64,000 bases of DNA from Fulvivirga ligni. GTDB taxonomy: Bacteria > Bacteroidota > Bacteroidia > Cytophagales > Cyclobacteriaceae. The position numbers were made by a program, and so were the translations under genes. The notes under the pieces are model-generated. The model had not been told where the DNA came from. It saw only the letters and a list, made by a program, of their open reading frames with translations, and ran no database searches. Shown piece after piece: positions 1,898-40,152 of the stretch. How positions within the stretch are numbered: position 1 is the stretch's first letter; each line of letters opens with the position of its first letter. The stretch spans positions 5,437,001-5,501,000 of the forward strand of contig NZ_CP089979.1 in NCBI RefSeq assembly GCF_021389935.1. The letters are read 5' to 3'.

Positions 1898-5453
<3,556 letters not shown>

Positions 5454-11378: not shown

Positions 11379-11440
11379 TACTCTGGCATGATTTGTTAAA
11401 CACCTTCCCCTCCTCATTTGTATTATCATAAAGACACGCT

Positions 11441-12346: not shown

Positions 12347-12501
12347 TCACTGGATTTTAACTGTTCACTTTTCATAAACACCACTTATCCAGATTTTATT
12401 TTTTCTTGGTATTTTGAAATTTACCTTTCCACCCATATCTAAATAAGGAAAGCCTACATGCTTTCTAAAACGAAACATTTATCTAACCCTACTCCTATTT
12501 T

Positions 12502-13536: not shown

Positions 13537-13565
13537 AACATTGTAATAGTTGGCTTTTACAATAA

Positions 13566-13606
13566 TGAGGCTGTTTCGAAGGTAACTTTGAGACAGCCTT
13601 ATTTTC
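13566..13606 (+). terminator. Intrinsic terminator-like hairpin
   Basis: AGGCTGTTTC and GAGACAGCCT form a 10-bp stem with one G-T pair, followed by TTATTTTCGTTTT. Placed just after the hydrolase stop. Confidence 0.65.
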
Positions 13607-13695
13607 GTTTTCAAAAAGATTATTCAATCATTAAATTCAAAAAATAATTAGATAAATAATATATTTACTATTATAATTTAACCAACCTAAATCTT

Positions 13696-14202: not shown

Positions 14203-14279
14203 GACTATGACCATCAGGTGTTTCCAAAATGCCTGATGACGTATATACTTACAGGACAAAGGGTAATCAAAAGATTATT

Positions 14280-14699
14280 ATGGGTAAGAAAAGCAGACAT
14301 AAGCAAACAGAAGCCGAGCCTTTCATCATTGAAAGAATCATTTGGGCTATCTTAAATCCGATAATAAAGCCCTTTGCTTATATCTACAAGGTATTCAATC
14401 CAGAAGTTATTGTTACAGAAATACCACTTACTGCCGATGCTCCATGTTATTGTGGCTCCAATATTATATACCATGATTGCCACCGTCCAAAGCACAAGGA
14501 GAAAGATAAAATAGTATTGAAAATCACTAAACGATACATTAAATCTGGGAAAGTGAAGGTAAAATACAAGGTAAAGGCCAATGAAGCCTTGATTTTATCA
14601 AGAATGAAACCCGGAGTTATTAACGCTCTTAATAAAGATAAGAACTATGTTGACACCTCTCCATATACGAATCCTAATGCTATTTCAGGCGACCTTTAA
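14280..14699 (+). CDS. SEC-C motif protein
   Basis: 139 residues from the ATG at 14280 (MGKKSRHKQTEAEP). An upstream in-frame ATG at 14229 would add 17 poorly conserved residues. The SEC-C zinc-binding motif is present as APCYCGSNIIYHDCHRP (Cys-X-Cys-X8-Cys-His), as at the C-terminus of SecA. The rest is basic (KKYIKSGKVKVKYKV-like strands). Possible nucleic-acid or ribosome contact is inference. Confidence 0.75.
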   Translation: MGKKSRHKQTEAEPFIIERIIWAILNPIIKPFAYIYKVFNPEVIVTEIPLTADAPCYCGSNIIYHDCHRPKHKEKDKIVLKITKRYIKSGKVKVKYKVKANEALILSRMKPGVINALNKDKNYVDTSPYTNPNAISGDL

Positions 14700-14755
14700 G
14701 AAATCAATTTACTAAATTTACATTCACTAATTACCTAAACTCAAACCTCCGAAAG

Positions 14756-16396: not shown

Positions 16397-16442
16397 AAGA
16401 TAATCTTAGCTTGTATTTTTCTAATTATTATTATTTTGGAAC

Positions 16443-17726
16443 ATGAACCCTAATGATTCTGATCTAAAGCCAGAATGGTTAAAAGAACTACAGCTTAAAA
16501 GTTGGGAGCCTGAGATATTGCTTTCTGGTATTGTGCTCTATGGAATGTTTCAGGTGCCCGAGGTGCTTGACCGGTTTTTGCTTTTCTTCTCAGCTGAGGT
16601 ATATAATGATATCAATGCCATGGATACGCTGGTGGCATTGCTGAAAATCGGAGTTTACTGGCTTATTGCTGGATTAATCCTGCACCTGATTTGTAGAGGA
16701 TTTTGGGTGGGCCTGGTCGGCCTCAGCTATTCATTTCCCGATGGGATTAACCTGGAAAAACTAAAATTTCAGCCAAAATACCTTAAAAAAGTAAAAGAAG
16801 TGCCTCCCTTTGAGCAGATTATACTCAGGGTAGAGCGGGTCTGTAGTTTTATCTATAGCGTATCATTTCTCTTGTTTATGAGTCTCGTGGGCACATATCT
16901 TTATGCTACAGTGGTAGTGGTCATTCCTATGGCTGTCATTATAGCATCATTAGATTCAGCTCATTTAACAGCAGGTAGTATCAACTTACTGAATAGATAT
17001 GGCAACTGGGCCATGATTCTTGGCTTTGTAGGTGTGGCCGATTTTATAACCATGGGCTATTTCCGTCGATTTAAGTTCATTGCAAAGATCTATTGGCCTT
17101 TTTATGTACTCTTCAACTTTCTTACTTTGGCCAATTATTATCGTCCTACTTATTTTGCCATAGTTACTAATCTGAAGAAACGCTGGCTATTCCTTTTTTT
17201 ACTATCCTTTGCGTTCATCAGTTTTGTAGGGATCGCATCTATTAGAGACACTACTCCAGATCAATATTTCTCACGTCTGAATATCTGGAACAGCATGGAT
17301 GGCAACCTGGCTTTAGAAGGTTTCTATCAGGATAGACCCACCAAACCCTCTGAAAGGATTCAAATTCCATCTGACATCATCAAAGACGACGTACTCAGAG
17401 TTTTCATTCCCTCCACTATAAACAAGGAAGATTCTCTGAAAAAATTCATCAATTATGATTCAATAAAGACCACTGATACATCATCAAAGAAGTTAGGTAA
17501 ATACTATCTAAAAAAGATGTCTGAATACTATAGATTAACCATAGCCGACTCTACTTTCACCACTAAGGGATATTTCCAAAATAACAAGGCTACACGACAG
17601 AAGGGATATGTTTGCTATTTGAACATTGGATACCTCAAAGAAGGATTGTATGAACTGAAGCTGGAAGGCCCTAAGGATATGTTTAAAGATCCTGTTGCAA
17701 CAGTTCCTTTTTACAAAGCAAATTGA
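16443..17726 (+). CDS. Multi-pass membrane protein, unknown function
   Basis: 427 residues, not recognised. Starts MNPNDSDLKPEWLKELQLKS, then about six membrane segments: PEILLSGIVLYGMF, LLKIGVYWLIAGLILHLIC, ERVCSFIYSVSFLLFMSLVG, VVVVIPMAVIIASL, YWPFYVLFNFLTLANY and WLFLFLLSFAFISFVGIASI. The C-terminal third (about 280-427) is polar and probably periplasmic, with LRVFIPSTINKED. It follows the TPR-AraC gene by 46 bases in the same direction, so it could be co-expressed. Confidence 0.65.
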   Translation: MNPNDSDLKPEWLKELQLKSWEPEILLSGIVLYGMFQVPEVLDRFLLFFSAEVYNDINAMDTLVALLKIGVYWLIAGLILHLICRGFWVGLVGLSYSFPDGINLEKLKFQPKYLKKVKEVPPFEQIILRVERVCSFIYSVSFLLFMSLVGTYLYATVVVVIPMAVIIASLDSAHLTAGSINLLNRYGNWAMILGFVGVADFITMGYFRRFKFIAKIYWPFYVLFNFLTLANYYRPTYFAIVTNLKKRWLFLFLLSFAFISFVGIASIRDTTPDQYFSRLNIWNSMDGNLALEGFYQDRPTKPSERIQIPSDIIKDDVLRVFIPSTINKEDSLKKFINYDSIKTTDTSSKKLGKYYLKKMSEYYRLTIADSTFTTKGYFQNNKATRQKGYVCYLNIGYLKEGLYELKLEGPKDMFKDPVATVPFYKAN

Positions 17727-27838: not shown

Positions 27839-29470
27839 CTACTTCTCTATCTCCTTCAAGTTCTCCATCTTTTTATTTCTCAGGAAGCCATTGATGTCTT
27901 CGAAATGCTCTCTAATGTGCTTATTGCCAAATTCGAATACTTTTTCAGCCAGGCCATCGAGGAAGTCACGATCGTGAGAAACCAGTATAATGGTGCCTTC
28001 GAAGTCTCTCAGGGCGTCTTTAAGGATGTCTTTAGTCTTGATATCCAAGTGGTTAGTCGGCTCATCGAGGATTAATAGATTAACGGGCTGTAGCAATAGC
28101 TTGATCATGGCCAGCCTGGTACGCTCACCACCGGAAAGCACTTTCACTTTTTTGTCAATAGTGTCTCCGCTGAACATAAAGGCGCCTAGCAGGTCCTTGA
28201 CTTTAGTTCTTATATCTCCCTGGGCGATTTCGTCAACCGTTTGAAATACAGTCAGGTTCTCGTCTAATAGTGCTGCCTGGTTCTGAGCAAAGTAGCCGAT
28301 TTTGCTGTTATGCCCTACTTGTAGCGTACCATCAAAATCAATCTCGCCCATAATGGCTTTCACCATGGTAGATTTACCCTCACCATTCTTACCCACAAAG
28401 GCTACTTTATCACCTTGAGCTATAGTGAAAGTGGCATCTTTAAATACCAGATGATCTCCATATGACTTGCTAAGACCATCCACTATTACCGGGTATTTTC
28501 CTGACCTCGGAGCAGGAGGAAACTTCAGGTTAAGGCTGGAAGTATCTACTTCATCCACCTCCACAATCTCCATTTTCTCCAGCATTTTCACGCGTGACTG
28601 CACTTGGAGCGTCTTAGAATATGTTCCTTTAAAACGATCTATAAACTGCTGTATTTCAGCAATTTGCTTAGCCTGATCATCAAATTGTTTTTGCTGTTGC
28701 TCGCGTCTTTCTTTACGAAGCTCCAGGTAGTGCGAGTAGTTAGTACGATAGTCATAAATACGACCAGTGGTGATTTCGATAGTACGGTTGGTCAGGTTAT
28801 CTACAAAAGCCTTATCGTGACTGATCACCATTACTGCCTTGGCACTATTCTTCAAAAAGTTCTCCAGCCACTGCACCGATTCGATGTCCAGGTGGTTGGT
28901 AGGCTCATCGAGTAAGATAAGATCAGGCTTCTTTAAAAGTATTTTTGCCAGCTCAATACGCATACGCCATCCTCCACTAAACTCATTGGTAGGCTTGGTA
29001 AAATCTTCACGCAAAAAGCCAAGACCAAGCAAAGTCTTTTCTACTTCAGCATCAAAGTTTACTTCCTCGATACTGTAAAACTTCTCGCTCAGCTCTGATA
29101 CTTCTTCAATGATCTTACTGTAAGCATCTGACTCATAATCTGTGCGCGTTTCCAGCTGATGGTTAAGCTCATCAATACGCAACTTCATATTATTTATTTT
29201 GGCGAATGCCTTAGACGCCTCCTCAAATACAGAGCAATCGTCATCAGTAAGCAGGTGCTGCGGTAGGTAAGCGATCACTGCATCTGCAGGAAATGATACC
29301 TTTCCCTGGGTAGGCTTATTCACCCCGGCAATGATTTTCAGCAGCGTAGATTTACCCGCTCCGTTTTTACCCATAAGGGCAATACGGTCATTGTTATTGA
29401 TATTAAAGGTTACATTACTAAATAAAGTGGTGCCACTAAACTCAACACCTACGGCATCTACTGAAATCAT
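27839..29470 (-). CDS. ABC-F family ATPase (Uup/EttA/YkpA-like)
   Basis: 543 residues, two ABC domains without membrane part. First domain: Walker A GKNGAGKST, signature FSGGWRMRI, Walker B LILLDEPTNHLD. Second domain: GKNGEGKST, LSGGERTRL, LILDEPTNHLD. The linker of about 80 residues between them is the charged P-site tRNA interaction motif (YLELRKERREQQQKQFDDQ). ABC-F proteins act on stalled ribosomes or give ribosome-protection antibiotic resistance. Length and linker match the housekeeping YkpA/Uup types. Single gene. Confidence 0.93.
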   Translation of the reverse strand: MISVDAVGVEFSGTTLFSNVTFNINNNDRIALMGKNGAGKSTLLKIIAGVNKPTQGKVSFPADAVIAYLPQHLLTDDDCSVFEEASKAFAKINNMKLRIDELNHQLETRTDYESDAYSKIIEEVSELSEKFYSIEEVNFDAEVEKTLLGLGFLREDFTKPTNEFSGGWRMRIELAKILLKKPDLILLDEPTNHLDIESVQWLENFLKNSAKAVMVISHDKAFVDNLTNRTIEITTGRIYDYRTNYSHYLELRKERREQQQKQFDDQAKQIAEIQQFIDRFKGTYSKTLQVQSRVKMLEKMEIVEVDEVDTSSLNLKFPPAPRSGKYPVIVDGLSKSYGDHLVFKDATFTIAQGDKVAFVGKNGEGKSTMVKAIMGEIDFDGTLQVGHNSKIGYFAQNQAALLDENLTVFQTVDEIAQGDIRTKVKDLLGAFMFSGDTIDKKVKVLSGGERTRLAMIKLLLQPVNLLILDEPTNHLDIKTKDILKDALRDFEGTIILVSHDRDFLDGLAEKVFEFGNKHIREHFEDINGFLRNKKMENLKEIEK

Positions 29471-29552
29471 ACGCTTAAAATTTGCTGCAAAGCTAATAGA
29501 TCACCAGTTGGGAAGTAATCATTAGTGGATATTTTGTTTGGAAATTTGTGAG

Positions 29553-29649
29553 CACCTCATCCCCGGCCCTTCTCCTCAAGGAGAAGGGGGTTTTTCAGGA
29601 CAGCATGGCACTGTCAGAGTCACTCTGAGGTTCTCGAAGAGTAGACGGT
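29553..29649 (+). repeat. Dispersed repeat R1, full copy
   Basis: CACCTCATCCCCGGCCCTTC to GAAGAGTAGACGGT, 97 bp. Internal palindromes: CCTTCTCC-TCAA-GGAGAAGG and CAGAGT-C-ACTCTG. It lies at the left border of the accessory island. Confidence 0.88.
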
Positions 29650-29746
29650 ATGGTTGAGGATGACCGTTCAAGAATGGGCCAAGAGCACGATACTCACAAT
29701 ATTGCGGTGTTATATCTGGTAGCCGCAGACTACGAACAACAGAGGT

Positions 29747-30352
29747 TTATAAATGTCCGTTGATTCTGTTGATTTCTGTCCCGACAACCGATTTTAATTG
29801 TTCAAGAAAATGATTAGTCAAATCAGGCCAATTCCAAAATGTCAACCCGAAGTTCGAGAACGAAAGGCTATTGTCAATTTTATATTCCTCAATGTTCGTT
29901 ATTCTTCCACAATGAGGACAAGTCAATGTTGCGTTTTCATGGATAGTCCAATTGTCAAATTCTGGAAACACACTATGGAATAGTTTTAATTGTTCTTTTG
30001 TACAATTGTCAGTAAAGAAATCTTGTGGTGTGATTCCTTCAAATCTATTTCTAGCGCAGTTCGGACATTCCATTTTTGTCATTGCAGTAAAAGCACCCGC
30101 ATTGAACACCTCTCGTTCAGTCCTTATCTCAACACCACAAACAGTCCATTTTAAGATATCTTCATCATAGCCGATCGCATCAATATGTTTTTTTCCAGGT
30201 TTATACCCTTTATTTTTGGTACTCATGATGCAATTTGTCAATTCAGTTTCAATAAACTCGTTTGACTGCATCCATTGAATCACCTTGTCCTTAACCTCCT
30301 CAGGCTTTTCAATTTCTCTAGCTGTGGTAATAATTATATAATTGTCACTCAT
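29747..30352 (-). CDS. Protein with two Cys-X2-Cys pairs (zinc-ribbon-like), unknown function
   Basis: 201 residues from the ATG at 30352 (MSDNYIIITTAREIEKPEE). The frame extends upstream to 30403, but that part lies inside the conserved intergenic block. Two CxxC knuckles, ECPNCARNRF (about 120) and TCPHCGRITNIEEY (about 162), probably bind zinc together. The C-terminal NFGLTFWNWPDL is aromatic-rich. It is preceded by the shared block that ends in the ATGTTGTAGAG core, so it is a candidate cassette gene, but no matching 3' arm was found. Confidence 0.65.
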   Translation of the reverse strand: MSDNYIIITTAREIEKPEEVKDKVIQWMQSNEFIETELTNCIMSTKNKGYKPGKKHIDAIGYDEDILKWTVCGVEIRTEREVFNAGAFTAMTKMECPNCARNRFEGITPQDFFTDNCTKEQLKLFHSVFPEFDNWTIHENATLTCPHCGRITNIEEYKIDNSLSFSNFGLTFWNWPDLTNHFLEQLKSVVGTEINRINGHL

Positions 30353-30370
30353 AGTTTTAGGGTACTCATT

Positions 30371-30564
30371 CTCTACAACATCCGTATAAGGGAAATAAAA
30401 CATTCCCTAATTTCTTTTATCCGTTAATATAATGTTAAACAAAAATAGCTTAAGACAATAGAAATGAGCTACTCAATAACGTGTCAGAGACACATTTGAT
30501 CATTATGGAAATTCGTAGTCGCAGACTACGAATAACATGGGGTTCATACACAATGTTGTACTCC
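30371..30564 (-). repeat. attC-like site between cassette genes
   Basis: Read on the minus strand it starts right after the Imm51-like gene with GGAGTACAACATTGTGTATG and ends GGAATG-TTTTATTT-CCCTTATACGGATGTTGTAGAG. The ends pair with each other (TACAACAT with ATGTTGTA, then GTATGA with TTATAC). Inside are three hairpins: GTGTC-AGA-GACAC (30481-30493), ATTCGTAGTC-GCA-GACTACGAAT (30511-30533) and the AGGGAA/TTCCCT stem. The integron reading is inference. Confidence 0.5.
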
Positions 30565-31038
30565 GTCTATTCCATTTTCCAGTTGGCTTCTGCTACCTGG
30601 ATGCAGATGTTCAGCAGTTGTTCGTCTGATTTTACAGTTGATATTAGCCGTCCGATTTGTTCAAGAGTTGACCTGCTAGAGCTCCAAATAGCTAATCCCT
30701 CGGCTTCATCGTCAAACCTTATGTTGTCCAGAAGTTCTGGGTTGGAAAGTTTGATAGCTCCATATGTTATTCCAAGCCATGTTGGCCCTCCGCCTTGAAA
30801 TCCTCTTGAAGAAAGTTGTTCGTAATGGCTGTCAGGTTCGTGGACATCATAATAGTCCAATCTATATGTTCGTTCGTCAATCTCAACAATGTTTCCACGA
30901 ATGGAGATGGATTCATCAGTTAAGGCGTTAACCAGTTTGGGTTCAGGTTCAAACTGTTGGCAGGCAATAAGGAGTAAAGGAATTAAAAGAGTTGATATGT
31001 TCTTCATGAGTTTGCGTTCCGGGGATGGAGTACAACAT
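30553..31038 (-). mobile_element. Candidate gene cassette (Imm51-like gene) bounded by 12-bp inverted repeat
   Basis: On the plus strand ATGTTGTACTCC (30553-30564) and GGAGTACAACAT (31027-31038) are perfect inverted copies placed 2 bases after the stop and 19 bases before the start of a single gene. The upstream arm abuts a block (CCGTATAAGGGAAA) shared with three other genes of the island, and the shared part stops exactly at ACAT. Cassette-specific arms with a shared GTT/AAC core are what integron attC R boxes produce. No integrase in the window. Confidence 0.5.
30567..31007 (-). CDS. Imm51-like immunity lipoprotein
   Basis: 146 residues from ATG 31007 (MKNISTLLIPLLLIACQQ, a lipobox with Cys16). 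The C-terminal half (SRGFQGGGPTWLGITYGAIK, then LLDNIRFDDEAEGLAIWSSS, then LEQIGRLISTVKSDEQLL) reads like the Imm51 family, predicted immunity proteins of polymorphic toxin systems. Recognition is from memory and not certain. No toxin gene is next to it, so it may be an orphan immunity cassette. The gene is tightly bracketed by the 12-bp inverted repeat described for 30553-31038. Confidence 0.6.
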   Translation of the reverse strand: MKNISTLLIPLLLIACQQFEPEPKLVNALTDESISIRGNIVEIDERTYRLDYYDVHEPDSHYEQLSSRGFQGGGPTWLGITYGAIKLSNPELLDNIRFDDEAEGLAIWSSSRSTLEQIGRLISTVKSDEQLLNICIQVAEANWKME

Positions 31039-31055
31039 CCGTATAAGGGAAACAA

Positions 31056-31151
31056 AACATTCCCTTATTTCTTTTATAGGGAAATCTAATATTTTACCAC
31101 CAAAAATGAAAGCAACTTTTTTTAGACTTTTAACTATTCGCTATTCCGCAT
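31056..31151 (-). repeat. Shared upstream block R4 of island genes
   Basis: AACATTCCCTTATTTCTTTT, then CTAATATTTTACCACCAAAA, then TGAAAGCAAC and TTTAGACTTTTAAC. Related copies are at 36581-36650 and 39781-39862. Together with the adjacent hairpin arm AAGGGAAA it forms the end of the attC-like site. Confidence 0.6.
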
Positions 31152-31262
31152 CTGGTCGTAGCGTCCGCTACGATCCACACATTGCTTGAGCGCCCGCTCA
31201 ATTTCCTTTCTTAATGCACAAAATTGTATTGATGAAATACGGTCTGTGCATAGGAGCTTCAG
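31152..31262 (+). repeat. Three-hairpin repeat R2, copy 1
   Basis: Hairpin 1 GGTCGTAGC-GTCC-GCTACGATCC; hairpin 2 TTGAGC-GCCC-GCTCAA; hairpin 3 TGCACA...TGTGCA, containing TGTATT and GAAATACGG. About 111 bp, present four times in the island. Loop differences keep the stems intact. Confidence 0.85.
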
Positions 31263-31404
31263 CCATCCTTAGAAATTATTCATGACACTCAAAATTAAAT
31301 ACGGGTCGAGGTATTCTCAGCTAACTTCACTAGTCAGCAACAGCAATCCTTCTCTCCTTCCTTTTAGCTAAAAAAACGACACATGAAAGGGCCATTATTA
31401 TCTT

Positions 31405-31498
31405 CACCTCATCCCCGGCCCTTCTCCTCAAGGAGAAGGGAGTTTTAGGACAGCATGCACTGTCAGAGTCACTCTGAGGTTCTCGAAGAGTAGACGGT
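31405..31498 (+). repeat. Dispersed repeat R1, full copy
   Basis: CACCTCATCCCCGGCCCTTC through GTCAGAGTCACTCTGAGG to GAAGAGTAGACGGT. Lies in a 600-base gene-free gap together with R2. Confidence 0.88.
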
Positions 31499-31656
31499 CA
31501 TATAAAGAATTATGATCAGGACTGGTGACGAGCTAAGGATGACGAATACCAGTACATCACAATTAATTTACATTTTCAAACTCACCACCAATCCAAAAGA
31601 TCAAATGAGCTATTAGCTATTGACATTTTATTCAAATCCGCAATACTTACTTGGTA

Positions 31657-32121
31657 TTAAGGACCATCTCCCACCTGCAGCACGTCAATTATACGTTCTT
31701 TAGATGAATTTAAATTCCAACTATCAAATGGGTAAATTGCTTGATTCGCAATGATAAAAAAGAGTGAATCCCCTGAATGTTCCTCAAGTATTTGGGTAAA
31801 TCTATCATTATCTTCAAGTGTTCCAATTGAATCTCTATGCTGGAAGATGAGAAGATAATTTTGCTTAGCCGTGTTCTGAATATCAACATCAGAAATAATG
31901 CTCCAATCTAGGATCTTATTGTCCTTATCCTCAAAGTTGTGGATTGCTAACAAAAATAGTCGATCATCAGATGTTGTTGCGGTATCAGGGTTGTTAGAAA
32001 TGCAATCTTGAGCGTCGGCTATTAGTTCGTAGGTACTTTCACAGCAGTTACAAACCAAGTATCTATGGTTACATCCTAAAAGGAATAAAATGAATATTGC
32101 ACATATTAAAATTCGACTCAT
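31657..32121 (-). CDS. Lipoprotein, unknown function
   Basis: 154 residues with lipobox FILFLLGC (Cys17). The cluster CNHRYLVCNCCESTY near the N-terminus has four cysteines just after the anchor. A middle segment (RLFLLAIHNFEDKDNKILDW) looks globular. No family recognised. It starts 14 bases after the stop of the lipocalin-like lipoprotein gene, so the two probably form an operon. Confidence 0.62.
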   Translation of the reverse strand: MSRILICAIFILFLLGCNHRYLVCNCCESTYELIADAQDCISNNPDTATTSDDRLFLLAIHNFEDKDNKILDWSIISDVDIQNTAKQNYLLIFQHRDSIGTLEDNDRFTQILEEHSGDSLFFIIANQAIYPFDSWNLNSSKERIIDVLQVGDGP

Positions 32122-32135
32122 CTGTCTAATACAAT

Positions 32136-32540
32136 TTATTTCTCAAAAATCAAGATGCTACCATCAGAGAGTTCCCATTTAAGCACATTATCGTCTATTT
32201 GAGTTAGCCTTCCTTCATATACAATCCATTCACCAGTTGAAGACATCGTAGCGTCTGTAATACCCACTTGTTTTATCTTTAGCGTATCAAGATCAGGAAA
32301 ATACTCATGTATTTTTTGTCCAAAATTCGAATGAAAAAGATCAGTTTCGACGGTCGAATCTGACTTGAATTCAACATATCTCCCTATGGAGTTCTTAAAA
32401 TCATTTGGTCTTGGAGGTAAAGGCCTCTTTTTTGGCTCAATGACCTTAGTAATCTTCCAATCACCCACTATGCTTTTTTGATTTTGAACACAACTCAAAA
32501 AGAACGCCGCCAACCCTATAATTATTAATTTAAATTTCAT
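32136..32540 (-). CDS. Lipocalin-like lipoprotein
   Basis: 134 residues from ATG 32540 (MKFKLIIIGLAAFFLSC, lipobox). The mature part SIVGDWKITKVIEP, a gap, YVEFKSDSTVETD, and VLKWELSDGSILIFEK follows the lipocalin-like/DUF4488 pattern of small Bacteroidota lipoproteins (GxWxl... at the start, a strand ladder after). Ligand unknown. First gene of a likely two-gene operon. Confidence 0.65.
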   Translation of the reverse strand: MKFKLIIIGLAAFFLSCVQNQKSIVGDWKITKVIEPKKRPLPPRPNDFKNSIGRYVEFKSDSTVETDLFHSNFGQKIHEYFPDLDTLKIKQVGITDATMSSTGEWIVYEGRLTQIDDNVLKWELSDGSILIFEK

Positions 32541-32595
32541 ATTCTCCAATATAACCCATTATATGCTTCGCATCCTGAATCTAGCTTTGCAAAAC

Positions 32596-33478
32596 TTAAA
32601 ACCCACTATTAATCATAATATTCGGTTTCAAATAAACTTCTTTGTTTTTGAAATCCAAGATAATATGAAATCGCTTTAGCAGATTTCCACCAAACAAGGC
32701 AGGAATGTGTGAGTCGACTTTTGTCTTCACCAGATCCGCAGGCATGTTATATATCTGATAGCCCGCAATTTCGACTCTTGGAAGTAGGGCGTAATCAGAT
32801 TTCACCACCGTACCATCAGTGCCATGGCTGGTAGACTCGCCAATAACCGGGTATGCATTTAAAAGATTGTTGGCAGTTACGGTGTTGTAATATACCTTGA
32901 AAATGGAATTATAGCCGGTATCCAACATTGTCCAAAATTTGATCTTTTTCTTTCCCTTATACACCGTTACGTTAATATAAGGTAGGCCATCTATAAATTT
33001 TAGCTTGGTTTTAGTGTATCTCACGTAATAGTCTGGAAGCTTATCTGAGATCAATAATTCTTTACTTTCATAATCGATTTCCACTATTTTATCCTCAAAA
33101 AAATTCCACCCGATGAGCCCATCTAGCTTTTCACCTTCAGGGTATGATATTCCCAGCACCTCTTTTCCAGCGTAAATTTCATTGCCCAAAGTCACATTAT
33201 TATTAAGACTTTTACTCTCCGAGGAAGCCCCATTACCACCACTATTGAGCACCACGGTATCAAATTTAATATTGGTTGGCCTCTATTTTGGTTTTATTGA
33301 TGACAGTGATATCGGCTCCTAAATCAAACACCAAATTCAGGGTATCCGACTGATTAATAAGACCTTGGATATAAATTCGATTGTCATCTCCCAGGTGAAA
33401 TGGGATGGTCTGTTGGGCAGCCGCAACATGGCAAACAGTGCAAATTATTAGAAAGCCGAAGAGTTTTTGCATTGACAT
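32596..33478 (-). pseudogene. Retropepsin-like aspartyl protease, frameshifted
   Basis: The N-terminal part (MSMQKLFGFL, signal peptide to VAAAQ) reaches LVFDLGADITVINKTKIEAN and then stops at 33266. The family continues in the +1 frame as NIKFDTVVLNSGGNG and runs to 32596 with the second lobe motif WTMLDTGYNSIFKV and the GGNLLKRFHIILDFKNKEVY ending typical of these proteins. One extra base near GAGGCCAACCAATATTAAA (about 33262-33272) explains the break. The first lobe has DLGA where DTGA is usual. Pseudogene or base error; periplasmic in its intact relatives. Confidence 0.75.
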
Positions 33479-33628
33479 TAATAAAAGTAGTGAACTATTC
33501 AATTGCATATTTCCAAACAACCTGATAGACCTTAAATGATTGATAATCAAAAATATCATTTATCAGGAATAATATATGTGAGTACGATACTTTAATAATC
33601 TTGGATAAGTTTTAACTGGATTAATTAT

Positions 33629-33724
33629 ACCTCATCCCCCTGCCCTTCTCCTCAAGGAGAAGGGGGTTTTTAGGGCAGCATGGCACTACCAGAGTCACTC
33701 TGAGGTCCTCGAAGAGTAGACGGT
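33629..33724 (+). repeat. Dispersed repeat R1, full copy
   Basis: ACCTCATCCCCCTGCCCTTC to GAAGAGTAGACGGT. A second, partial R1 tail follows at 33805-33872 (CTGAGTCACTCTGAGG). Confidence 0.88.
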
Positions 33725-33774
33725 TTGGTTAAGAATGGCTGCTTGAGTGTAGGTCAAATTTCAAGGACTCGAAT

Positions 33775-33872
33775 GGTAAGGTTACCAACCAGAGGCTCGC
33801 ACCAGTGGAGAAGGGATTTTTAGGACAGTTTAACACTGCCTGAGTCACTCTGAGGTTCTCGAAGAGTAGACG
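33775..33872 (+). repeat. Composite of partial repeats
   Basis: GGTTACCAACCAGAGGCTCG (a relative of the hairpin at 34812-34838) followed by a partial R1 from GAGAAGGGATTTTTAGG to GAAGAGTAGACG. No gene; an open frame on the minus strand over this stretch is made of repeat sequence. Confidence 0.6.
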
Positions 33873-33982
33873 AGTTTTGAGCCAAGTTACACTAAGCCAA
33901 AGCCAAGAACTTAAACGCAGAATGAATGAGCAATTTGTAATAGCCTTACCAGTAAGCACTGTAACATATGCATCGCTAAACA

Positions 33983-34520
33983 ATGTTATTGATTGGCTAA
34001 TTCGTGTTCTATTGCATTTTCGAATTCTTCATAACTCTCATCAGAGTAATGCTTAAAAGGCCAAAGTTGAGATATCCTAACACAATAAAAGTAAATTGAA
34101 TTATCCTCAAAAACACATACAATTTCACCACCTTTTAATGCCGTGTTGTCGTCATAAAATGTTAGATAGAATCCCTCATTGACTTTTATACCCCAATCCA
34201 GATTACGTCTAATATTTAATACTGCTTCGTAATTTTCACTCTTACTTCGCCTTGTATTTATTTCGATTAATTTAATATTTTTTTTGAATGACCAATTAAG
34301 GTATAAATATATAAGTCCGGTTAAAGAAACTATGAGCAGTGAGATTATCACAGGTATTAAAAATGCCTTAAATAGTAAAAACCCTACTATTAGAATTAAA
34401 GCCCCCAATCGAATTGACATGTTCAGGTATCCTTTAAATTCTGGGAATAGATTGTAGTGAGGCTTCTTGGTATCTAGTACTTTTTTAGCGATTTCAGAAT
34501 TGATTGGCATAATATAACAT
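33983..34520 (-). mobile_element. Possible third gene cassette, short arms
   Basis: ATGTTAT (33983-33989) overlaps the stop of the gene at 33986-34510, and ATAACAT (34514-34520) lies just before its start, followed by the shared block GCGTATAAGGGGACAC. Only 7 bases pair, so this is weaker than the 30553 and 35916 cases. Confidence 0.35.
33986..34510 (-). CDS. Small membrane protein, unknown function
   Basis: 174 residues from ATG 34510. Two close membrane segments (LGALILIVGFLLFKAFLIPV and IISLLIVSLTGLIYLYL, about 32-70), then a soluble domain with NLDWGIKVNEGFYLTFYDDN and IYFYCVRISQLWPF, which resembles YcxB-like or PH-type domains found in other two-TM proteins. It sits in the cassette island. 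Confidence 0.6.
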   Translation of the reverse strand: MPINSEIAKKVLDTKKPHYNLFPEFKGYLNMSIRLGALILIVGFLLFKAFLIPVIISLLIVSLTGLIYLYLNWSFKKNIKLIEINTRRSKSENYEAVLNIRRNLDWGIKVNEGFYLTFYDDNTALKGGEIVCVFEDNSIYFYCVRISQLWPFKHYSDESYEEFENAIEHELANQ

Positions 34521-34672
34521 GCGTATAAGGGGACACTTTCCCTTATTTCTTTTTTACGTTAATATAATGTTAAACAAAAATTGCTTAGGACGATAGAAAT
34601 GAGCTGCTCAATACCGTGTCAGAGACACTTGTGATCATTATGGAAATTCGTAGTCGCAGACTACGAATAGCT
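34511..34672 (-). repeat. attC-like site, second copy of the hairpin block
   Basis: Contains the same ordered parts as 30371-30538: AACATGCGTATAAGGGGAC, TTCCCTTATTTC, TTAATATAATGTTAAACAAA, GTGTC-AGA-GACAC (34616-34628) and ATTCGTAGTC-GCA-GACTACGAAT (34646-34668). About 160 bp at high identity, non-coding. Confidence 0.75.
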
Positions 34673-34675
34673 GGG

Positions 34676-34736
34676 TTTTTAAGACAGTCTTGATACTACC
34701 AGAGTCACTCTGAGGTTCTCGAAGAGTAGACGGCTT
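34676..34736 (+). repeat. Dispersed repeat R1, partial (tail only)
   Basis: TTTTTAAGACAGTCTTG then CCAGAGTCACTCTGAGG and GAAGAGTAGACGGC. It lacks the CCTTCTCC palindrome. Confidence 0.75.
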
Positions 34737-34811
34737 AAAAGATTTAAACTGCTCTGCACCAAATACTCATTAGACAAAATGAGCTAAGAGCTAGCTATGC
34801 TTTTATAATGA

Positions 34812-34838
34812 GGTTACGAGCCAGAGGCTCGCACTAAC
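34812..34838. repeat. Hairpin GTTACGAGCC / GGCTCGCACTAAC
   Basis: GGTTACGAGCC-AGA-GGCTCGCACTAACGG: GAGCC and GGCTC pair with a 3-base loop, and GTTA and TAAC pair further out. A degenerate copy is at 33780. Confidence 0.6.
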
Positions 34839-34862
34839 GGTGGTTTTAAAATTATGAATTAT

Positions 34863-35540
34863 TTATTCAACTGTTATTGTCTTATCTCCATTAGAATAAA
34901 GTCTGAACCATACAGGCACTATGAATCTTGTGGTAACTGTCTGACCATCTTTAACCCCACTTATCCAATCAAAATTGATTTTCTTTAGACCGTTTATTAC
35001 CTCTGAATTGAACTCTTCAATTCCTTTTGCAACTGTTACATCTAGAAGATTATTTTCTGGTCCAATGGTTACATATACAAACATCTTACCCTCAACCCCC
35101 AGCGCTAATGCTCTCATGGGGTAAGAAATTACTTCATTTAGTTTTTCGGTTAATCTTACCTGTCCCCCAACGAAATAGGGCGGCTTGTCTAGTAGCCCCT
35201 CTGTAAATCTGCTACCCTCTAATATTTCATAAGACATGTCTTGATTATATGAAATAAGTTCATTTTTCGAAAAATCATATACCTGCTCTATCTCCCCATT
35301 TCTCAAAAATTTCCATTCACCTATTTCTTTGTCATTTTCGTATTGCCCCTCAATAATCAGCTCACCTGACCTATCATATTTCTTATACAAACCATGCTTT
35401 GTTGATTTATCAGATTTAAGAACATAATACTCAGCTTTAAGCCCATTATCTTTCTCCTTTTTAAGTTTGGTCTCTTGACCATGAACATTACTCACTAAAG
35501 TAATTAAAAGCAACACAGTCAAAATTTTCACTTTATTCAT
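34863..35540 (-). CDS. Periplasmic protein with MORN/YwqK-like repeats and TonB C-terminal domain
   Basis: 225 residues. Signal peptide ends at NVHGQ. Residues 35-95 carry YwqK/MORN-like repeats (HGLYKKYDRSGELIIEGQY, EIGEWKFLRNGEI). Residues 120-215 are a TonB_C domain (YPMRALALGVEGKMFVYVTI, then LLDVTVAKGIEEFNSEVING). No N-terminal membrane anchor remains after cleavage, so it is probably not a true energy transducer; such stand-alone TonB_C proteins are common in Bacteroidota and of unknown role. Confidence 0.75.
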   Translation of the reverse strand: MNKVKILTVLLLITLVSNVHGQETKLKKEKDNGLKAEYYVLKSDKSTKHGLYKKYDRSGELIIEGQYENDKEIGEWKFLRNGEIEQVYDFSKNELISYNQDMSYEILEGSRFTEGLLDKPPYFVGGQVRLTEKLNEVISYPMRALALGVEGKMFVYVTIGPENNLLDVTVAKGIEEFNSEVINGLKKINFDWISGVKDGQTVTTRFIVPVWFRLYSNGDKTITVE

Positions 35541-35685
35541 TCTATTTATTTTATTCTAATTCAAACAAGCTCACATTTACAATGTAGAAATATCCGTTCT
35601 CTTCCATTTCTCATATTGACAAAGTCAGCAATTTAACAATTTCAAGAAAAAATAAACTAAAAAATCATAAAATCACAAGCCCCAC
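35541..35685. other. Gap with AT-rich motif and candidate promoter
   Basis: Minus-strand TTGAAATTGTTAAATTGC followed by TGACTTTG looks like a -33 TTG and -7 TAnnTTTG-type promoter for the TonB-domain gene. The motif AATTTAACAATTTCAAGAAA also occurs near 25590, 27536 and 40000. Confidence 0.4.
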
Positions 35686-35870
35686 ATGGTCGTAGCATCC
35701 GCTACGATCCACACAGTGCTTGAGCATCCGCTCAAATTCCTTTCTGAATGCAAAAAATTGTATTGATGAAATACTGTCTGTGCATAGGAGGTCTCAACTT
35801 ATCTTATTCCGAGCGGAACCTCTTGCACGTTGTTGGTCATAGGACCGCTGCGCTTAACCTAACGACCAGT
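35686..35870 (+). repeat. Composite R2+R3 structured repeat, copy 1
   Basis: R2 (GGTCGTAGC-ATCC-GCTACGATCC, TTGAGC-ATCC-GCTCAA, TGCA...TGCA) followed by R3 (AACTTATCTTATTCCGAGCG, then a hairpin GGTCATAGG...CCTAACGACC with one base bulge). The same order is seen at 36664 and 37487. Confidence 0.85.
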
Positions 35871-35915
35871 TTTAGGTACGTGGCAGATGGCTAAGAAAGG
35901 CCATGCGATCATCGT

Positions 35916-36562
35916 ATGTTAGCCACCTTATTTAATGATTTTAATGTTCTTGATCAGACTTATCAGACCTATGAAAAAGAAAAGTCCAGATAGGAATTGC
36001 CAGAAATTAAATCCATCAGCTTTCAAAATTAAAATTGGAGTTAGCACACTGCAAAGAAGAGTTATTATCAGGCCGAATTGGAAATTTTTCTTGTCTTTAA
36101 AGTGTATTTGAAGAAAGGTTTCTTTTGGTTCTTTATATTTCGTTCTTCCCAGCATCATAGATAATCCAGCAAGAGAACAAAATAGTGTTAAAATCATCCA
36201 GCCGTTAAATTCCGAGTCGTTCTGATAAATATCAATAGACCATAGGCCGAAACCTACAAAAACTGCTGTTCCTGTAATGAAGTTAGTCAGGCTGTCATTT
36301 TTATTATCCGCAAGTTTCCCTACTCGTTGTTCAATATTTCTCTTGAGTTCAGATGTTTCTATTTCGTTTTTTATTGAGAGTTCATAAATCTCAAGATCTG
36401 TTTTTAATTCTTGCTTCTTTCGATGGATTGATAAGTTTTCTCTAATTTTTAAAAATGCTGCAATTACACCGCTCATTGCAATTATGATCTTGGGGAGAGT
36501 TTCTAGGTCTATAGATTTGAGAAGTTCCAAAATTTTGATCTATGCTAAGTGGTGGCTAACAT
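35916..36562 (-). mobile_element. Candidate gene cassette bounded by 12-bp inverted repeat
   Basis: ATGTTAGCCACC (35916-35927) touches the stop codon of the gene at 35928-36530. GGTGGCTAACAT (36551-36562) lies 20 bases before its start and is followed by CCGTACAAGGAAAACAC, the shared island block. The arm sequence differs from that of the Imm51-like cassette except for the ATGTT core, as expected of attC R boxes that carry cassette-specific bases. Confidence 0.5.
35928..36530 (-). CDS. Three- to four-TM membrane protein, unknown function
   Basis: 200 residues, TTG start proposed (no ATG is available near the block; an upstream ATT is possible). One hydrophobic stretch near the N-terminus (IIIAMSGVIAAFL), a charged helix (LSIHRKKQELKTDLEIYELS), then three clear membrane segments (GWMILTLFCSLAGLSMMLG, FGLIITLLCSVLTPILIL, FLSGLFFFIGLISLI). 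No family recognised. Bracketed by the inverted repeat described for 35916-36562. Confidence 0.6.
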   Translation of the reverse strand: MELLKSIDLETLPKIIIAMSGVIAAFLKIRENLSIHRKKQELKTDLEIYELSIKNEIETSELKRNIEQRVGKLADNKNDSLTNFITGTAVFVGFGLWSIDIYQNDSEFNGWMILTLFCSLAGLSMMLGRTKYKEPKETFLQIHFKDKKNFQFGLIITLLCSVLTPILILKADGFNFWQFLSGLFFFIGLISLIKNIKIIK

Positions 36563-36663
36563 CCGTACAAGGAAAACACTTTCCTTTATCCCTTTTATAC
36601 GGAAATCTAATATTTTACTACTAAATATAAAAGCAACCTTTTGTAGACTTTCATTATCCCCCA
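36563..36663 (-). repeat. Shared upstream block R4, copy 2
   Basis: CCGTACAAGGAAAACACTTT, CCTTTATCCCTTTTATACGG, CTAATATTTTACTACTAAAT and TGTAGACTTTC. Matches 31039-31151 with changes; the AAGGAAA/TTTCCTT stem is conserved. Confidence 0.7.
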
Positions 36664-36852
36664 CCTGGTCGTAGCATCCGCTACGATCCACACATTGCTT
36701 GAGCATCCGCTCAAATTCTTTTCTTCATGCACAAAATTGTATGGATAAAATACTGTCTTTGCATAGTAGCTTCAGGACTAACTTATCTTATTCCGAGCGG
36801 CAGCTCTTGCATATTGTAGGTCGTAGGACCGCTGCGCTTAACCTACGACCAG
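36664..36852 (+). repeat. Composite R2+R3 structured repeat, copy 2
   Basis: Hairpins GGTCGTAGC-ATCC-GCTACGATCC and TTGAGC-ATCC-GCTCAA, then GGTCGTAGG...CCTACGACC with a 14-base loop holding ACCGCTGCGCTTAA. Confidence 0.88.
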
Positions 36853-36940
36853 CTTGATTAGTTAGCAGTAGTAGGCACGCGTTGAAAATAGCGCGCCAAC
36901 AGCTCATGACATACTCGGAACAACGGGGGTTTCCATTACA

Positions 36941-37345
36941 TCAATTTTTCCATTCCTTATATCCAATCACATCTTTGCGTATAGTTTTTCTCCATTTTCG
37001 ACCAAACTTATCCTGCAGATAATTTAAAATAACAGAATTATAAGCTTTCAGCATTTGGTTGTCCGGCCCTGAGCAGCCATTTTCATAGTAAAACACGTGG
37101 TATGTTGCCTCAAAAAGACTATCTGTGTCATATACTATCGGAGATATACCACCTTCTAATAATAAAAATGGTGTTTCACTTTTAATATCTTTTTGAGCCA
37201 GTTCCTCAGCTTCATCGATAGTGGTTGAAAACATGAGCTGATTAGCTCCGCTGTCATTTATTTGGGAGTTTGTTAACTGATATGATTGGCAGAAACTGAG
37301 TGAAGAAATTAGGGTAAGTAATATTGTAAGCAATTGATTCTTCAT
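36941..37345 (-). CDS. Secreted hypothetical protein, 134 residues
   Basis: Signal peptide MKNQLLTILLTLISSLSFCQ. The mature part contains ELAQKDIKSETPFLLLEGGI and YHVFYYENGCSGPDNQMLKA; two acidic patches and one cysteine. No family recognised. It lies in the island but shows no cassette arms on either side. Confidence 0.6.
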   Translation of the reverse strand: MKNQLLTILLTLISSLSFCQSYQLTNSQINDSGANQLMFSTTIDEAEELAQKDIKSETPFLLLEGGISPIVYDTDSLFEATYHVFYYENGCSGPDNQMLKAYNSVILNYLQDKFGRKWRKTIRKDVIGYKEWKN

Positions 37346-37486
37346 ATTGACTCTACTTTTACAGTTTGATATGCCAGGTTATAGAAATATAAAATCAAAT
37401 TTATTATAAATACCAGTATAGCAATAGTTTAGGAGGCTGATACTCACACCATCGGGTGAAATTTCAATTAAAAGAAACTTACCCCA

Positions 37487-37676
37487 CCTGGTCGTAGCAT
37501 CCGCTACGATCCACACAGTGCTTGAGCGTCCGCTCAAATTCTTTTCTTAATGCACAAAATTGTATTGACGAAATACTGTCTGTGGATAGGAGCTTCAGGC
37601 CTCAACTTATCTTATTCCGAGCGGAAGCTGTTGTACATCGTAGGTCGTAGGACCGCTGCGCTTAACCTACGACCAG
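37487..37676 (+). repeat. Composite R2+R3 structured repeat, copy 3
   Basis: Same order as copies 1 and 2: GGTCGTAGC-ATCC-GCTACGATCC, TTGAGC-GTCC-GCTCAA, TGCACAAAATTGTATTGACG, GGTCGTAGG...CCTACGACC. Ends 20 bases before the promoter of the RloA gene. Confidence 0.88.
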
Positions 37677-37696
37677 TTTGAGTTAGTTTTTCTTTT

Positions 37697-37728
37697 TTTG
37701 ATAAAAATGCGAAATTTTCGTAATATTG
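37697..37728 (+). promoter_or_regulatory. Candidate Bacteroidota-type promoter for the RloA-RloB pair
   Basis: -33 TTTG (37697-37700), 20-base spacer, -7 TAATATTG (37721-37728; one mismatch to TAnnTTTG), 22 bases before the ATG at 37750. Confidence 0.45.
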
Positions 37729-37749
37729 TGACACAAAACAAATCAAAAA

Positions 37750-39096
37750 ATGCTCATTAGGGTTTTTTCTTCGAATATACTGTCATTTGATACAGAAGTT
37801 GAATTCAGTCTGATTCCTGGAAAAGGAAGTGTTAAATCTGAACACGTTATTCGTTCGGAGGGCAGGGATGACATCCCTGTTTTGAAAACAGGAATTATTT
37901 ACGGAGCAAATGCATCAGGTAAATCAAATCTTATTAAGGTAGTTTCTTTAATTCAGTCTATGGCTACAAAAAGCTTGGAAAGTATAAATAAAGAAATACC
38001 TGTCGAGTTTTTTAAGCTAAGAGATAAGGTAGGTGGGTATTCCAAGATTGAAGTTGAAATTAAAGCAGGTAATAACAACTACGCCTACGGAGTTAAGTTC
38101 AATAAAAAGGTCATTGTGGAAGAATGGCTCTATCAGATAAATAAAAGAACGGAAAGGAAAATCTTTGAACGAAAAACAGCCAAGAAGGCAACTACTGTAG
38201 AATTTGAAAATGTCAAGTTTAAAAATAGCGAGGATGAGCAATTTGCTCATTTTGTTGCTCGAGGAACATCAGAGAATAAGACCTTTTTAAGAGAGTGTAT
38301 TGATAGGAATTTAAACTTCATTTCACAGGTAAATGATGTTTTTGAGTGGTTTGATGACAAGCTCAAGGTTTTCTTTCCTAGAACTAGATTCGGGGGTATG
38401 GAATTTCATTTGGAGTCAAACAAAGATTTATCTAAGTCTATGTCCAAGTTCTTGAAGTATTTCAATACTGGAGTTTCTGACTTACTAAAAACAGAAATTG
38501 ATTTAGAAAAAGATATCAAAGAAATTCCAAAAGAAGCCGTTAATGACTTACTTGCTGATTTAGAAGAGGGTAAACGTGCCATAATAGGAACTTCAGACAA
38601 CAGGACAAGTTTTGCCTTTGAAAAAGACAAAAAAGGAAAAACACGAGCTTATAAACTTGTTACAACACATTTGAATAAACTAGGCAAGGATGTTGTTTTT
38701 GAAATGGATGAAGAGTCGGACGGAACGAGGCGGCTCATTGACTTCATTCCAATGTTAGTTGATATTACTAAAAACGATTCTGTCTATTTAATTGATGAAA
38801 TAGATAGAAGCATGCACCCTATTCTAACAAAGGGAATAATAGAGTATTTTCTAAATCAATTGACAAAGGTTAAGAGTCAATTAATTGTAACTACACATGA
38901 ATCAAACTTGCTTAATCTAAATTTATTTAGAAAAGATGAAATTTGGTTTGTTGAGAAAAATAAGCATGGTAGTTCCAAATTTTACTCTTTATTAGAATTT
39001 AAGCCAAGAGCAGATAAGGATATCAAAAAAGGGTACTTGAACGGGCGATTTGGAGCGATTCCATTCCTTTCTAATCCTAAAGACTTGAGTTGGTAA
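37750..39096 (+). CDS. rloA: AAA15-family ATPase, RloA/AbiLi-like anti-phage component
   Basis: 448 residues. Walker A IIYGANASGKSN (about 53-64), central coiled-coil and DNA-engagement region, Walker B YLIDEIDRSMHP (about 347-358), and the switch LIVTTHESNLL near the end. The N-terminal FSSNILSFDTEVEFSLIPG wording is typical of AAA15/RloA proteins, which with RloB form AbiL-like abortive-infection systems (OLD/Septu-related ATPases). The stop TAA overlaps the ATG of the next gene (TAATG), so they are translationally coupled. It is the only plus-strand gene set in the island, and a defence role is inferred from the family. Confidence 0.83.
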   Translation: MLIRVFSSNILSFDTEVEFSLIPGKGSVKSEHVIRSEGRDDIPVLKTGIIYGANASGKSNLIKVVSLIQSMATKSLESINKEIPVEFFKLRDKVGGYSKIEVEIKAGNNNYAYGVKFNKKVIVEEWLYQINKRTERKIFERKTAKKATTVEFENVKFKNSEDEQFAHFVARGTSENKTFLRECIDRNLNFISQVNDVFEWFDDKLKVFFPRTRFGGMEFHLESNKDLSKSMSKFLKYFNTGVSDLLKTEIDLEKDIKEIPKEAVNDLLADLEEGKRAIIGTSDNRTSFAFEKDKKGKTRAYKLVTTHLNKLGKDVVFEMDEESDGTRRLIDFIPMLVDITKNDSVYLIDEIDRSMHPILTKGIIEYFLNQLTKVKSQLIVTTHESNLLNLNLFRKDEIWFVEKNKHGSSKFYSLLEFKPRADKDIKKGYLNGRFGAIPFLSNPKDLSW

Positions 39097-39770
39097 TGGG
39101 GAGGATTAAAAGAGAATTCAAAAGACCTGAGAATAAAAGAAGTGCCAAGCTTATAGTAATAGCAACAGAAGGTCGGAAAACTGAAAGGATTTATTTTGAG
39201 GCACTTGCCGAGAATTATGATTCCACTAAAGTTCATGTAGAGGTTATAGAAAAACTTAATGATAATTCAAGTCCTGAGGTTGTTTTAGAGCAGTTAAACT
39301 CTTTTGCTGCTGAATATAACTTAGATAATGAGGACGAACTTTGGATGGTTATTGATAGAGATTATCAGTCTTGGGAGGTTGAAATGATTAAATCTGTAGC
39401 CCAAATCTGTCATCAAAAGAAAGGGTATTATTTAGCACTAAGCAATCCTGCATTCGAATTATGGTTGCTACTTCATTTGGTTGATTGTACAGAGTTGCCC
39501 CAAAATGAAAAGGACGATTTATTCGGGAATGCCAAAGTTTCAAAGTCAAAAACATATTCAAAGAAAATGCTCTCGGACTTATTGAGAGGTTTTAACGAAG
39601 CTAAATATAACCCTGATCCCTTGATTTCCAATGTTGATCAAGCCATTCAAAATGCGATTAAACTCGATTTAAGTCCGAAAACTAGATGGCCTAATTATTT
39701 AGGCACTAGGGTTTATAAACTAGTCCAAAGTATTCTGTCTAGTTCAAATTTAACCCCTATATCCGCCTAA
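39096..39770 (+). CDS. rloB: RloB-family (AbiLii-like) putative nuclease/toprim partner
   Basis: 224 residues from ATG 39096. Toprim-like motifs: acidic Glu in VIATEGRKTERIYFEAL (about 22-38), DxD in WMVIDRDYQSWE (about 86-97), and LALSNPAFELWLLLHL (about 118-133), the RloB signature. The pair is thought to be a toxin-type effector controlled by the RloA ATPase; the biochemical target is not settled. The reading frame can be extended to TTG 39090, but the ATG in the TAATG overlap is preferred. Confidence 0.85.
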   Translation: MGRIKREFKRPENKRSAKLIVIATEGRKTERIYFEALAENYDSTKVHVEVIEKLNDNSSPEVVLEQLNSFAAEYNLDNEDELWMVIDRDYQSWEVEMIKSVAQICHQKKGYYLALSNPAFELWLLLHLVDCTELPQNEKDDLFGNAKVSKSKTYSKKMLSDLLRGFNEAKYNPDPLISNVDQAIQNAIKLDLSPKTRWPNYLGTRVYKLVQSILSSSNLTPISA

Positions 39771-40152
39771 GAGAAATATAACATTCCCTTATTGCTTTTA
39801 TGGGTCAAGCTAATTATTCTATTATCAAAAAATGAAAGTAGCCATATTCTAGACTTTTAACCATTTATTAGTCTTACCAAAGAGTCATTAAGATCTATAA
39901 ATGGTCAAAAGTATCTCCGACTAGGCAAATCAGCTGATCACCCAACTACAATCGCCTACAACCGTTGCAAACGACCATTCTTCACCTTCAACATCTCACT
40001 AATTTAATAATTCCAAGAAAAAATAAAGCACAGAAACAAAAAAATCTTATTTAAAAAGTAATAATCAATAAGTTTAAGCCCCAACTTATAATCTGAAACG
40101 ATTCTAACATTCACTCAAACTATATTTGATTTCACTCATAGTTATTTCAGTG
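39771..40152. other. Gap with a remnant of the island block and AT-rich motif
   Basis: 39779-39862 resembles R4 (AACATTCCCTTATTGCTTTT, AAAAAATGAAAGTAGCC, CTAGACTTTTAACC) but lacks the CCGTATAAGGGAAA arm. At 40000-40020 it has AATTTAATAATTCCAAGAAA. It marks the right edge of the island. No gene. Confidence 0.55.

Follow-up and report, generated by a model that had tools for sequence, protein, structure and literature searches.

A likely integron-like gene-cassette system of Bacteroidota, seen as a decayed, recombinase-less stretch in the Fulvivirga ligni genome

Integrons (IntI/attI/attC) are among the described systems closest to the locus considered here, a row of genes at 29.7–39.9 kb of a window of the Fulvivirga ligni genome (Bacteroidota). 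The window is the whole stretch of DNA analysed, 64 kb in length (bases 5437001–5501000 of the single-contig 6.52 Mb genome). In the passages cited from PMC7790495, the insertion I2 and the recombination of single-stranded DNA are held to be exclusive to integron integrases, and the CTXphi hairpin, a folded single strand recombined by Xer proteins without I2, is named as mechanistically different. For the Bacteroidetes proper, the part of the IntegronFinder 2.0 report cited here has In0 as the sole earlier finding and adds a single complete integron, that of Salinibacter ruber M1 (PMC9024848), and an excerpt concerning a Tenacibaculum genome states that IntegronFinder found none there (PMC10013915). 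Clusters of recombinase-associated acquired interbacterial defence (rAID) genes have been described with conserved intergenic motifs, and the word 'integron' has no occurrence in the sections cited (PMC12247911). Our analysis indicated that the 29.7–39.9 kb locus is very probably a decayed, recombinase-less stretch of a Bacteroidota integron-like gene-cassette system; our searches of the open-access literature brought up no report describing arrays of this kind as integron-like.

Like integrons, this system comprises a recombinase, an attI site and co-oriented accessory cassettes, and it also occurs as recombinase-less arrays. Its complementary R'/R'' arms are specific to each cassette and have AAC/GTT cores, and its sites are predicted to fold on the bottom strand into a hairpin whose spacer is unpaired and whose tip varies. 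Two traits of the recombinase set it apart from that of integrons, the missing IntI-specific insertion and an additional N-terminal domain of ca. 75 aa. A further difference is that R' reads GTTRNNNNNN(AT), with only 7 of 66 R' boxes fitting GTTRRRY. On present evidence the system appears to work like an integron; it was nevertheless kept out of the IntI family, since the recombinase tested has no IntI insertion and most R' boxes depart from GTTRRRY. An earlier sequence-only reading of the window had already noted the incomplete match to GTTRRRY and had offered two options, a cluster of attC sites lacking integron integrases (CALIN) or a different cassette mechanism; these same two features speak for the latter option and not for the former.

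That reading had described two genes bracketed by perfect 12-nt inverted arms, arms that differ between genes, and a block common to four genes, and these observations held throughout. One pair, ATGTTGTACTCC (30553–30564) and GGAGTACAACAT (31027–31038), surrounds an Imm51 gene, and the other, ATGTTAGCCACC (35916–35927) and GGTGGCTAACAT (36551–36562), surrounds the gene of a 200-aa protein. Seven 12-nt inverted pairs lying 300–900 nt apart were counted in 29400–40100, two of which start with ATGTT. Second-order Markov shuffles of this segment (n = 300) gave means of 1.16 12-nt pairs and 0.0033 ATGTT pairs, and two ATGTT pairs were obtained in none of them. The shared block, which in the gene direction reads ...AATAAGGGAATGTTTTGTTTCCCTTATACGGATGTT, has four copies in the window (starts 30377, 31034, 34516 and 36558) and a degenerate fifth at ca. 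39761–39814. Genome-wide, its 19-mer (up to three mismatches) matched 29 times on the forward and three times on the reverse strand; a few of these matches are chance, because a reversed-pattern control also gave one and four. The copies clustered at 3.17, 5.19–5.28, 5.47 (the window), 5.69 and 6.01 Mb, with some lone sites. The gene-side sequence next to AACAT varied among the 28 block copies compared, which is the opposite of the invariant arms that the sequence-only reading had named as grounds for giving up its proposal. The features of the locus are listed below, where R' is the arm GTTRNNNNNN, usually followed by AT, at the start of a cassette, R'' is its complement NNNNNNYAAC after the gene, and G005 is a genome of the same genus.

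29747–30352, minus strand: gene that follows the 30377 block; R'' not convincingly found; Pfam matches sub-threshold only
30370–30564, minus strand: long attC-like site of the Imm51 cassette, made up of R'', ca. 175 nt (the last ca. 50 being attI-type block) and R' of the next gene
30377–30426, minus strand: attI-type block before gene 29747–30352
30555–30564, minus strand: R''-type arm after the Imm51 cassette, GGAGTACAAC, exact complement of R' 31027–31036
30567–31007, minus strand: gene of the Imm51 cassette, encoding a member of the Immunity protein 51 family (39.7 bits with Pfam PF15595, against a cut-off of 29.8)
31027–31036, minus strand: R' arm, start of the Imm51 cassette, GTTGTACTCC
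31034–31083, minus strand: attI-type block ahead of the Imm51 cassette, with a hairpin (AAGGGAA...TTCCCTT) and after it ATACGGATGTT, aligned with the G005 recombinase–attI junctions
33986–34510, minus strand: gene that follows the 34516 block, without a Pfam match at E ≤ 0.01
34516–34565, minus strand: attI-type block before gene 33986–34510; partner arm not found
35918–35927, minus strand: R''-type arm, GGTGGCTAAC, exact complement of R' 36551–36560
35928–36530, minus strand: cassette gene for a 200-aa protein without a Pfam match at E ≤ 0.01
36551–36560, minus strand: R' arm of cassette 35928–36530, GTTAGCCACC
36558–36607, minus strand: attI-type block before cassette 35928–36530

The pairing of arms extended well beyond the window. 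When arm starts were set by the block, with no condition on the existence of a partner and a search of up to 2.5 kb, an exact partner arm (10/10) was found for 12 of the 28 block copies, including both window pairs, versus 3 of 756 swapped arms. At a match of at least 9/10 the corresponding counts were 18/28 and 43/756, and none of the 28 copies reached 9/10 in the upstream control. Exact pairs with AT in 11 regions (323 kb) numbered 29 on the cassette strand and one on the other, with ca. 1.2 expected from shuffles. An 11-nt arm starting at GTT missed the signal, and the 10-nt arm was used instead. The 51 sites delimited between R'' and the next R' motif measured 66 to 297 nt, some of their right ends resting on the motif alone. 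These results bear out the proposal that the genes are integron-like cassettes, each end of a cassette holding one part of a split R box, as does one cassette that apparently moved whole. This cassette of 734 bp occurred at two places within 5.18–5.30 Mb at 97.3% identity, with different neighbours on both sides; the homology starts at GTTACATG and ends with the CGTT of the next cassette, so the resolution of the crossover is limited to the shared GTT. The near-identical copies suggest that it moved as a unit bounded at GTT. One edge was flagged in 16 further alignments; in 10 of them the end coincides with the core of a block or attI, in the other six it does not.

The shared block had been taken as part of an ordinary attC site, an identification that was dropped after the recombinase–attI junction of G005 and the alignment of the blocks. 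In G005, an open recombinase frame ends in ...HNSTKTTEVYTHIANTSMKLIRNPLD and its stop codon is followed directly by the block and then by a cassette. Two broken recombinase copies in the same genome (open frames of 182 and 97 aa) are 96–99.7% like the open copy up to the GTT core, with different genes beyond. A recombinase tail of 22–30 codons still lies beside four block copies in the window's genome, and other copies there have a diverged equivalent of this tail (judged by eye). Because the block follows a recombinase stop in G005 and decayed tails adjoin four copies in the window's genome, it is best interpreted as attI-like, with the recombinase pointing toward it. In the sections cited, Treponema intI also points toward attI, in reverse-oriented integrons (PMC3607928).

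In the window, the block would then form the 3' part of a long (ca. 200 nt) cassette site. The long sites noted in the sequence-only reading were confirmed at this length in the window; elsewhere in the genome and in relatives, attC-like hairpins were often shorter. A cassette whose 3' site is (part of) attI recalls the delta-attI gene cassettes known, according to the pages cited, from class 1 and 2 integrons (PMC12901181). Unlike in those cassettes, the attI-derived site here still contains remnants of the recombinase tail, and the genome has many copies of it.

In agreement with the sequence-only reading, the window holds no integrase; an integron-integrase model gave 13 matches in the whole genome, none within the window and none over the cut-off. 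A recombinase of the G005 type was not recognised in the window's genome by searches that scored 17/17 and 7/7 candidates (the phylum survey described below scored 6/20 there); two Xer-like proteins (25–30% identity to the G005 recombinase) and distant frames of 411–450 aa were present. As a separate observation on this chromosome, dnaA lies at 1.738 Mb and GC skew was negative in most stretches sampled between 4.6 and 6.2 Mb. Given these two features and the 29:3 strand ratio of the blocks, most cassettes between 4.6 and 6.2 Mb look co-directional with replication.

Compared with IntI4 (2a3v), the G005 recombinase had 24 residues between two aligned stretches where IntI4 had 67 chain residues, at what we take to be the place of the IntI-specific insertion. 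The insertion (I2, or additional domain) was not found in the G005 protein, which scored 195.8 bits against TIGR02249, below the cut-off of 265. The extra N-terminal domain gave Pfam HARP scores of 16.4 and 13.6 bits in two of four recombinases tested, below the cut-off of 25; the recombinases of loci L129 and L108 had no HARP match. In a tree, the two Xer-like rows and ORF (open reading frame) L166_0, caught by the same pattern, came together in a 99/99 group that excluded rAID_L186 and the remaining cassette-linked rows, a placement that is unsure because one branch is very long. The structure prediction, made from four sequences, reached a predicted local distance difference test (pLDDT) value of 76.4 and a predicted template modelling (pTM) score of 0.48.

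Of 296 genomes sampled from the phylum to which the window belongs, 66 had a relative of the G005 recombinase (E ≤ 1e-60), with at most six candidates scored per genome. Five named relatives with 47–55% identity came from Cyclobacteriaceae, Winogradskyella epiphytica, Flavobacteriales (two) and Bacteroidales. The fetched loci contained 46 distinct recombinase ORFs, of which 35 were used after leaving out 11 with less than 1 kb downstream. As in integrons, an attI motif stood beside the recombinase gene, 29 of the 35 ORFs having GTTRNNNNNNAT no more than 250 nt beyond the stop (0.21 at random positions), the window itself being without a recombinase. An exact R'' followed downstream of 16 of these 29 motifs versus 8 of 812 swapped arms. 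The distance from the stop to the attI-like site ending in GTT was usually ca. 35–120 nt, and recombinase and cassettes were co-oriented. Twelve of the 20 phylum loci retrieved had one or more exact pairs (37 pairs versus 3.8 expected from shuffles); opposite-strand counts are not a control in this survey, because pairs are visible from both strands without the AT condition. The W. epiphytica locus (L129) has a recombinase, an attI and seven paired cassettes, the first of which encodes an ApaLI-like restriction endonuclease and a DNA methylase. Genome G174 has seven consecutive cassettes with 124–131 nt from R'' to the next R'.

Among five plasmid loci, paired arms were found in L183 and, once the core was read as ATT, in L186. 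In L183 (Chryseobacterium sp. SNU WT5 plasmid, 10115–17688), a GTTGGGAAAAATCG...CGATTTTTCCCAACGGCC element repeats at the cassette junctions, and the cassettes stand behind a gene annotated 'site-specific tyrosine recombinase/integron integrase'. L184 (NZ_CP104735.1, Acinetobacter baylyi pJAT2044, 2552–4573) has a recombinase, the attI-like motif CACTTGTTATGTGCCATTT and then tet(X3); this recombinase was 51.5% identical over 234 aa to that of Winogradskyella, and no exact R'' for tet(X3) was found in the locus. A plasmid blastn with a single 121-nt site gave no match.

L186 is a Parabacteroides distasonis plasmid (NZ_OY725747.1) carrying a rAID-type array, the label being assigned from its gene content. 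Its tyrosine recombinase shares 41.7% identity over 372 aa with that of Winogradskyella and likewise precedes co-oriented genes, in this case immunity genes. Seven of its 13 CCATTR motifs had a partner arm after the following gene, these seven being the motifs that lie in gaps between annotated genes; the reverse strand gave one match from 11 motifs. Unlike in the system described here, the core in L186 is ATT and not GTT, and the cargo consists mainly of immunity genes. The rAID trait of a tyrosine recombinase upstream of co-oriented short genes was present in relatives and was neither seen in the window nor recognised in its genome. Judged by this single example, the gut array of rAID type resembles a branch of the system described here. 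The single-stranded hairpin used by CTXphi and other Xer-hijacking elements is an imitation of the dif site of the host; unlike here, there are no cassettes and no attI beside a dedicated recombinase.

The predicted hairpins carried a strand bias. Duplicates, sites longer than 260 nt and those whose motif-only end had neither C nor T in front of it were removed from the 51 sites. The 46 that remained were folded with DNA parameters, and the bottom strand was the more stable in 36 of them. In the 28 sites whose L stem reached 13/18, the mismatches on the top strand were 65 A·C, 6 G·T and 28 others, the stems being scored ungapped and placed by Watson–Crick matches only. They were often at L-stem positions 7 and 12. 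Among 71 exact pairs, found with no condition set on position 11 of the R arm, 62 had an A facing C at that position. Read on the bottom strand, a top-strand A·C mismatch becomes a T·G wobble. In canonical attC sites, the strand is marked by extrahelical bases, as stated in the part cited of PMC2727003, unlike the asymmetry at A·C/G·T positions found here in the ungapped L stems, the only stems scored. Such wobble positions may take the place of extrahelical bases as the strand mark.

Ten window proteins were scanned with Pfam; the Imm51 protein, a TonB_C protein and an AAA_21/RloB pair exceeded the cut-off, and the other six did not. Among the ten, one protein, the Imm51 match, is a candidate for orphan immunity cargo. 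The AbiL-like pair at 37750–39770 is opposite in strand to its neighbours and is followed by the degenerate block copy:

37750–39096, plus strand: AAA ATPase, AbiLi-like (AAA_21), against the orientation of its neighbours (Pfam PF13304, 108.2 bits; PADLOC AbiLi, E 4.1e-82)
39090–39770, plus strand: RloB/AbiLii-like partner (Pfam PF13707, 119.1 bits; PADLOC AbiLii, E 7.6e-23)
39761–39814, no strand assigned: degenerate fifth block copy, GTT core lost; repeat family D6, 81% to the 31037 copy

Repeats of three dispersed families were found in the intergenic spacers, at window positions 27677, 29553, 31405 and 33629 (family D9), at 27727, 29615, 31464, 33690, 33840 and 34700 (D3), and at 31146, 35680, 36659 and 37482 (D1). 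Two tandem 1.8 kb elements (5681–7479 and 7491–9289; 98.8% alike), with ca. 91% copies in G005, are probably an insertion sequence. An Rfam scan of 27–42 kb gave three matches, all sub-threshold and none relevant.

In the mechanism we propose, the R''...R' site of a circular cassette would fold as a bottom-strand hairpin, and the recombinase would join it to double-stranded attI within GTT, which would create the arm at the cassette start. In the genome studied here, recombinase copies may have been amplified and then decayed, leaving attI-type blocks, some of which could now be the 3' part of long cassette sites. Several observations weigh against an integron-like system in general and against an active one in this genome. 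The evidence assembled here comes from sequences. In the window, two of the four block-linked genes (29747–30352 and 33986–34510) have no convincing partner arm, exact arms being present in the other two, and several genes have neither block nor arm. In relatives, 13 of the 29 recombinase-adjacent motifs had no exact partner (ca. 1.4 kb downstream was covered for most), 8 of the 20 fetched phylum loci had no exact pair (four of these span less than 2.2 kb), and plasmid loci L184, L185 and L187 had no paired arms. The top strand folded better in 9 of 46 sites, 18 of 46 had no ungapped L stem of at least 13/18, and both edges lay at such cores in only one of 92 alignments, that of the 734-bp cassette. 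Since searches of the genome around the window recognised no such recombinase, recombination there is now unlikely; with half of its block-linked genes without a partner arm, the window stretch is therefore best called decayed as well as recombinase-less.

Four other explanations were weighed. Ordinary double-stranded circles could have been exchanged by Xer- or phage-type recombination, with hairpins and arms serving merely as paired protein-binding sites, which we regard as possible but rather unlikely. Double-strand exchange does not require self-complementary arms that vary between cassettes, and such arms are what was found; the strand-asymmetric mismatches (65 versus 6; 62/71) would also have no obvious role. 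A conventional CALIN, that is, canonical attC sites of an integron that lost its IntI, would account for the cassette layout, the bottom-strand bias, the AAC/GTT cores and the 10-nt complementary arms, given that canonical cassettes pair over 9–11 nt in the part cited of PMC2727003. It is nevertheless improbable: no IntI over the cut-off occurs in the genome, the recombinase that precedes the matching attI is without the IntI insertion and below the TIGR02249 cut-off, and few R' boxes fit GTTRRRY.

Transposon ends or terminators flanking genes by chance would agree with the block hairpin followed by T-rich sequence on the plus strand, yet we consider them very improbable, as each gene has arms of its own that match each other, the boundaries lie at GTT and the block adjoins a recombinase gene. 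Debris, with two chance arm pairs lying beside a dispersed repeat, would fit the two blocks without partners and the repeat families that fill the spacers; it is contradicted by the shuffles and by the genome-wide arm test, and hardly any weight can be given to it.

Beyond the decayed stretch of an integron-like system, we lean moderately towards a broader view, in which Bacteroidota would have their own phylum-wide integron-like class. In this class, an Xer/XerA-like recombinase without I2 would act on hairpins of the bottom strand that G·T wobbles mark out; the extra, possibly HARP-like, N-terminal domain would perhaps read them, and the gut rAID arrays (one array seen) would be one branch. 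If this is true, hairpin-based cassette capture is not unique to IntI, and with a recombinase without I2 standing before strand-marked hairpin arrays, the requirements for hairpin recombination become directly testable. It would also supply a capture mechanism for rAID arrays and suggest a route by which Bacteroidota gather immunity, restriction and anti-phage genes.

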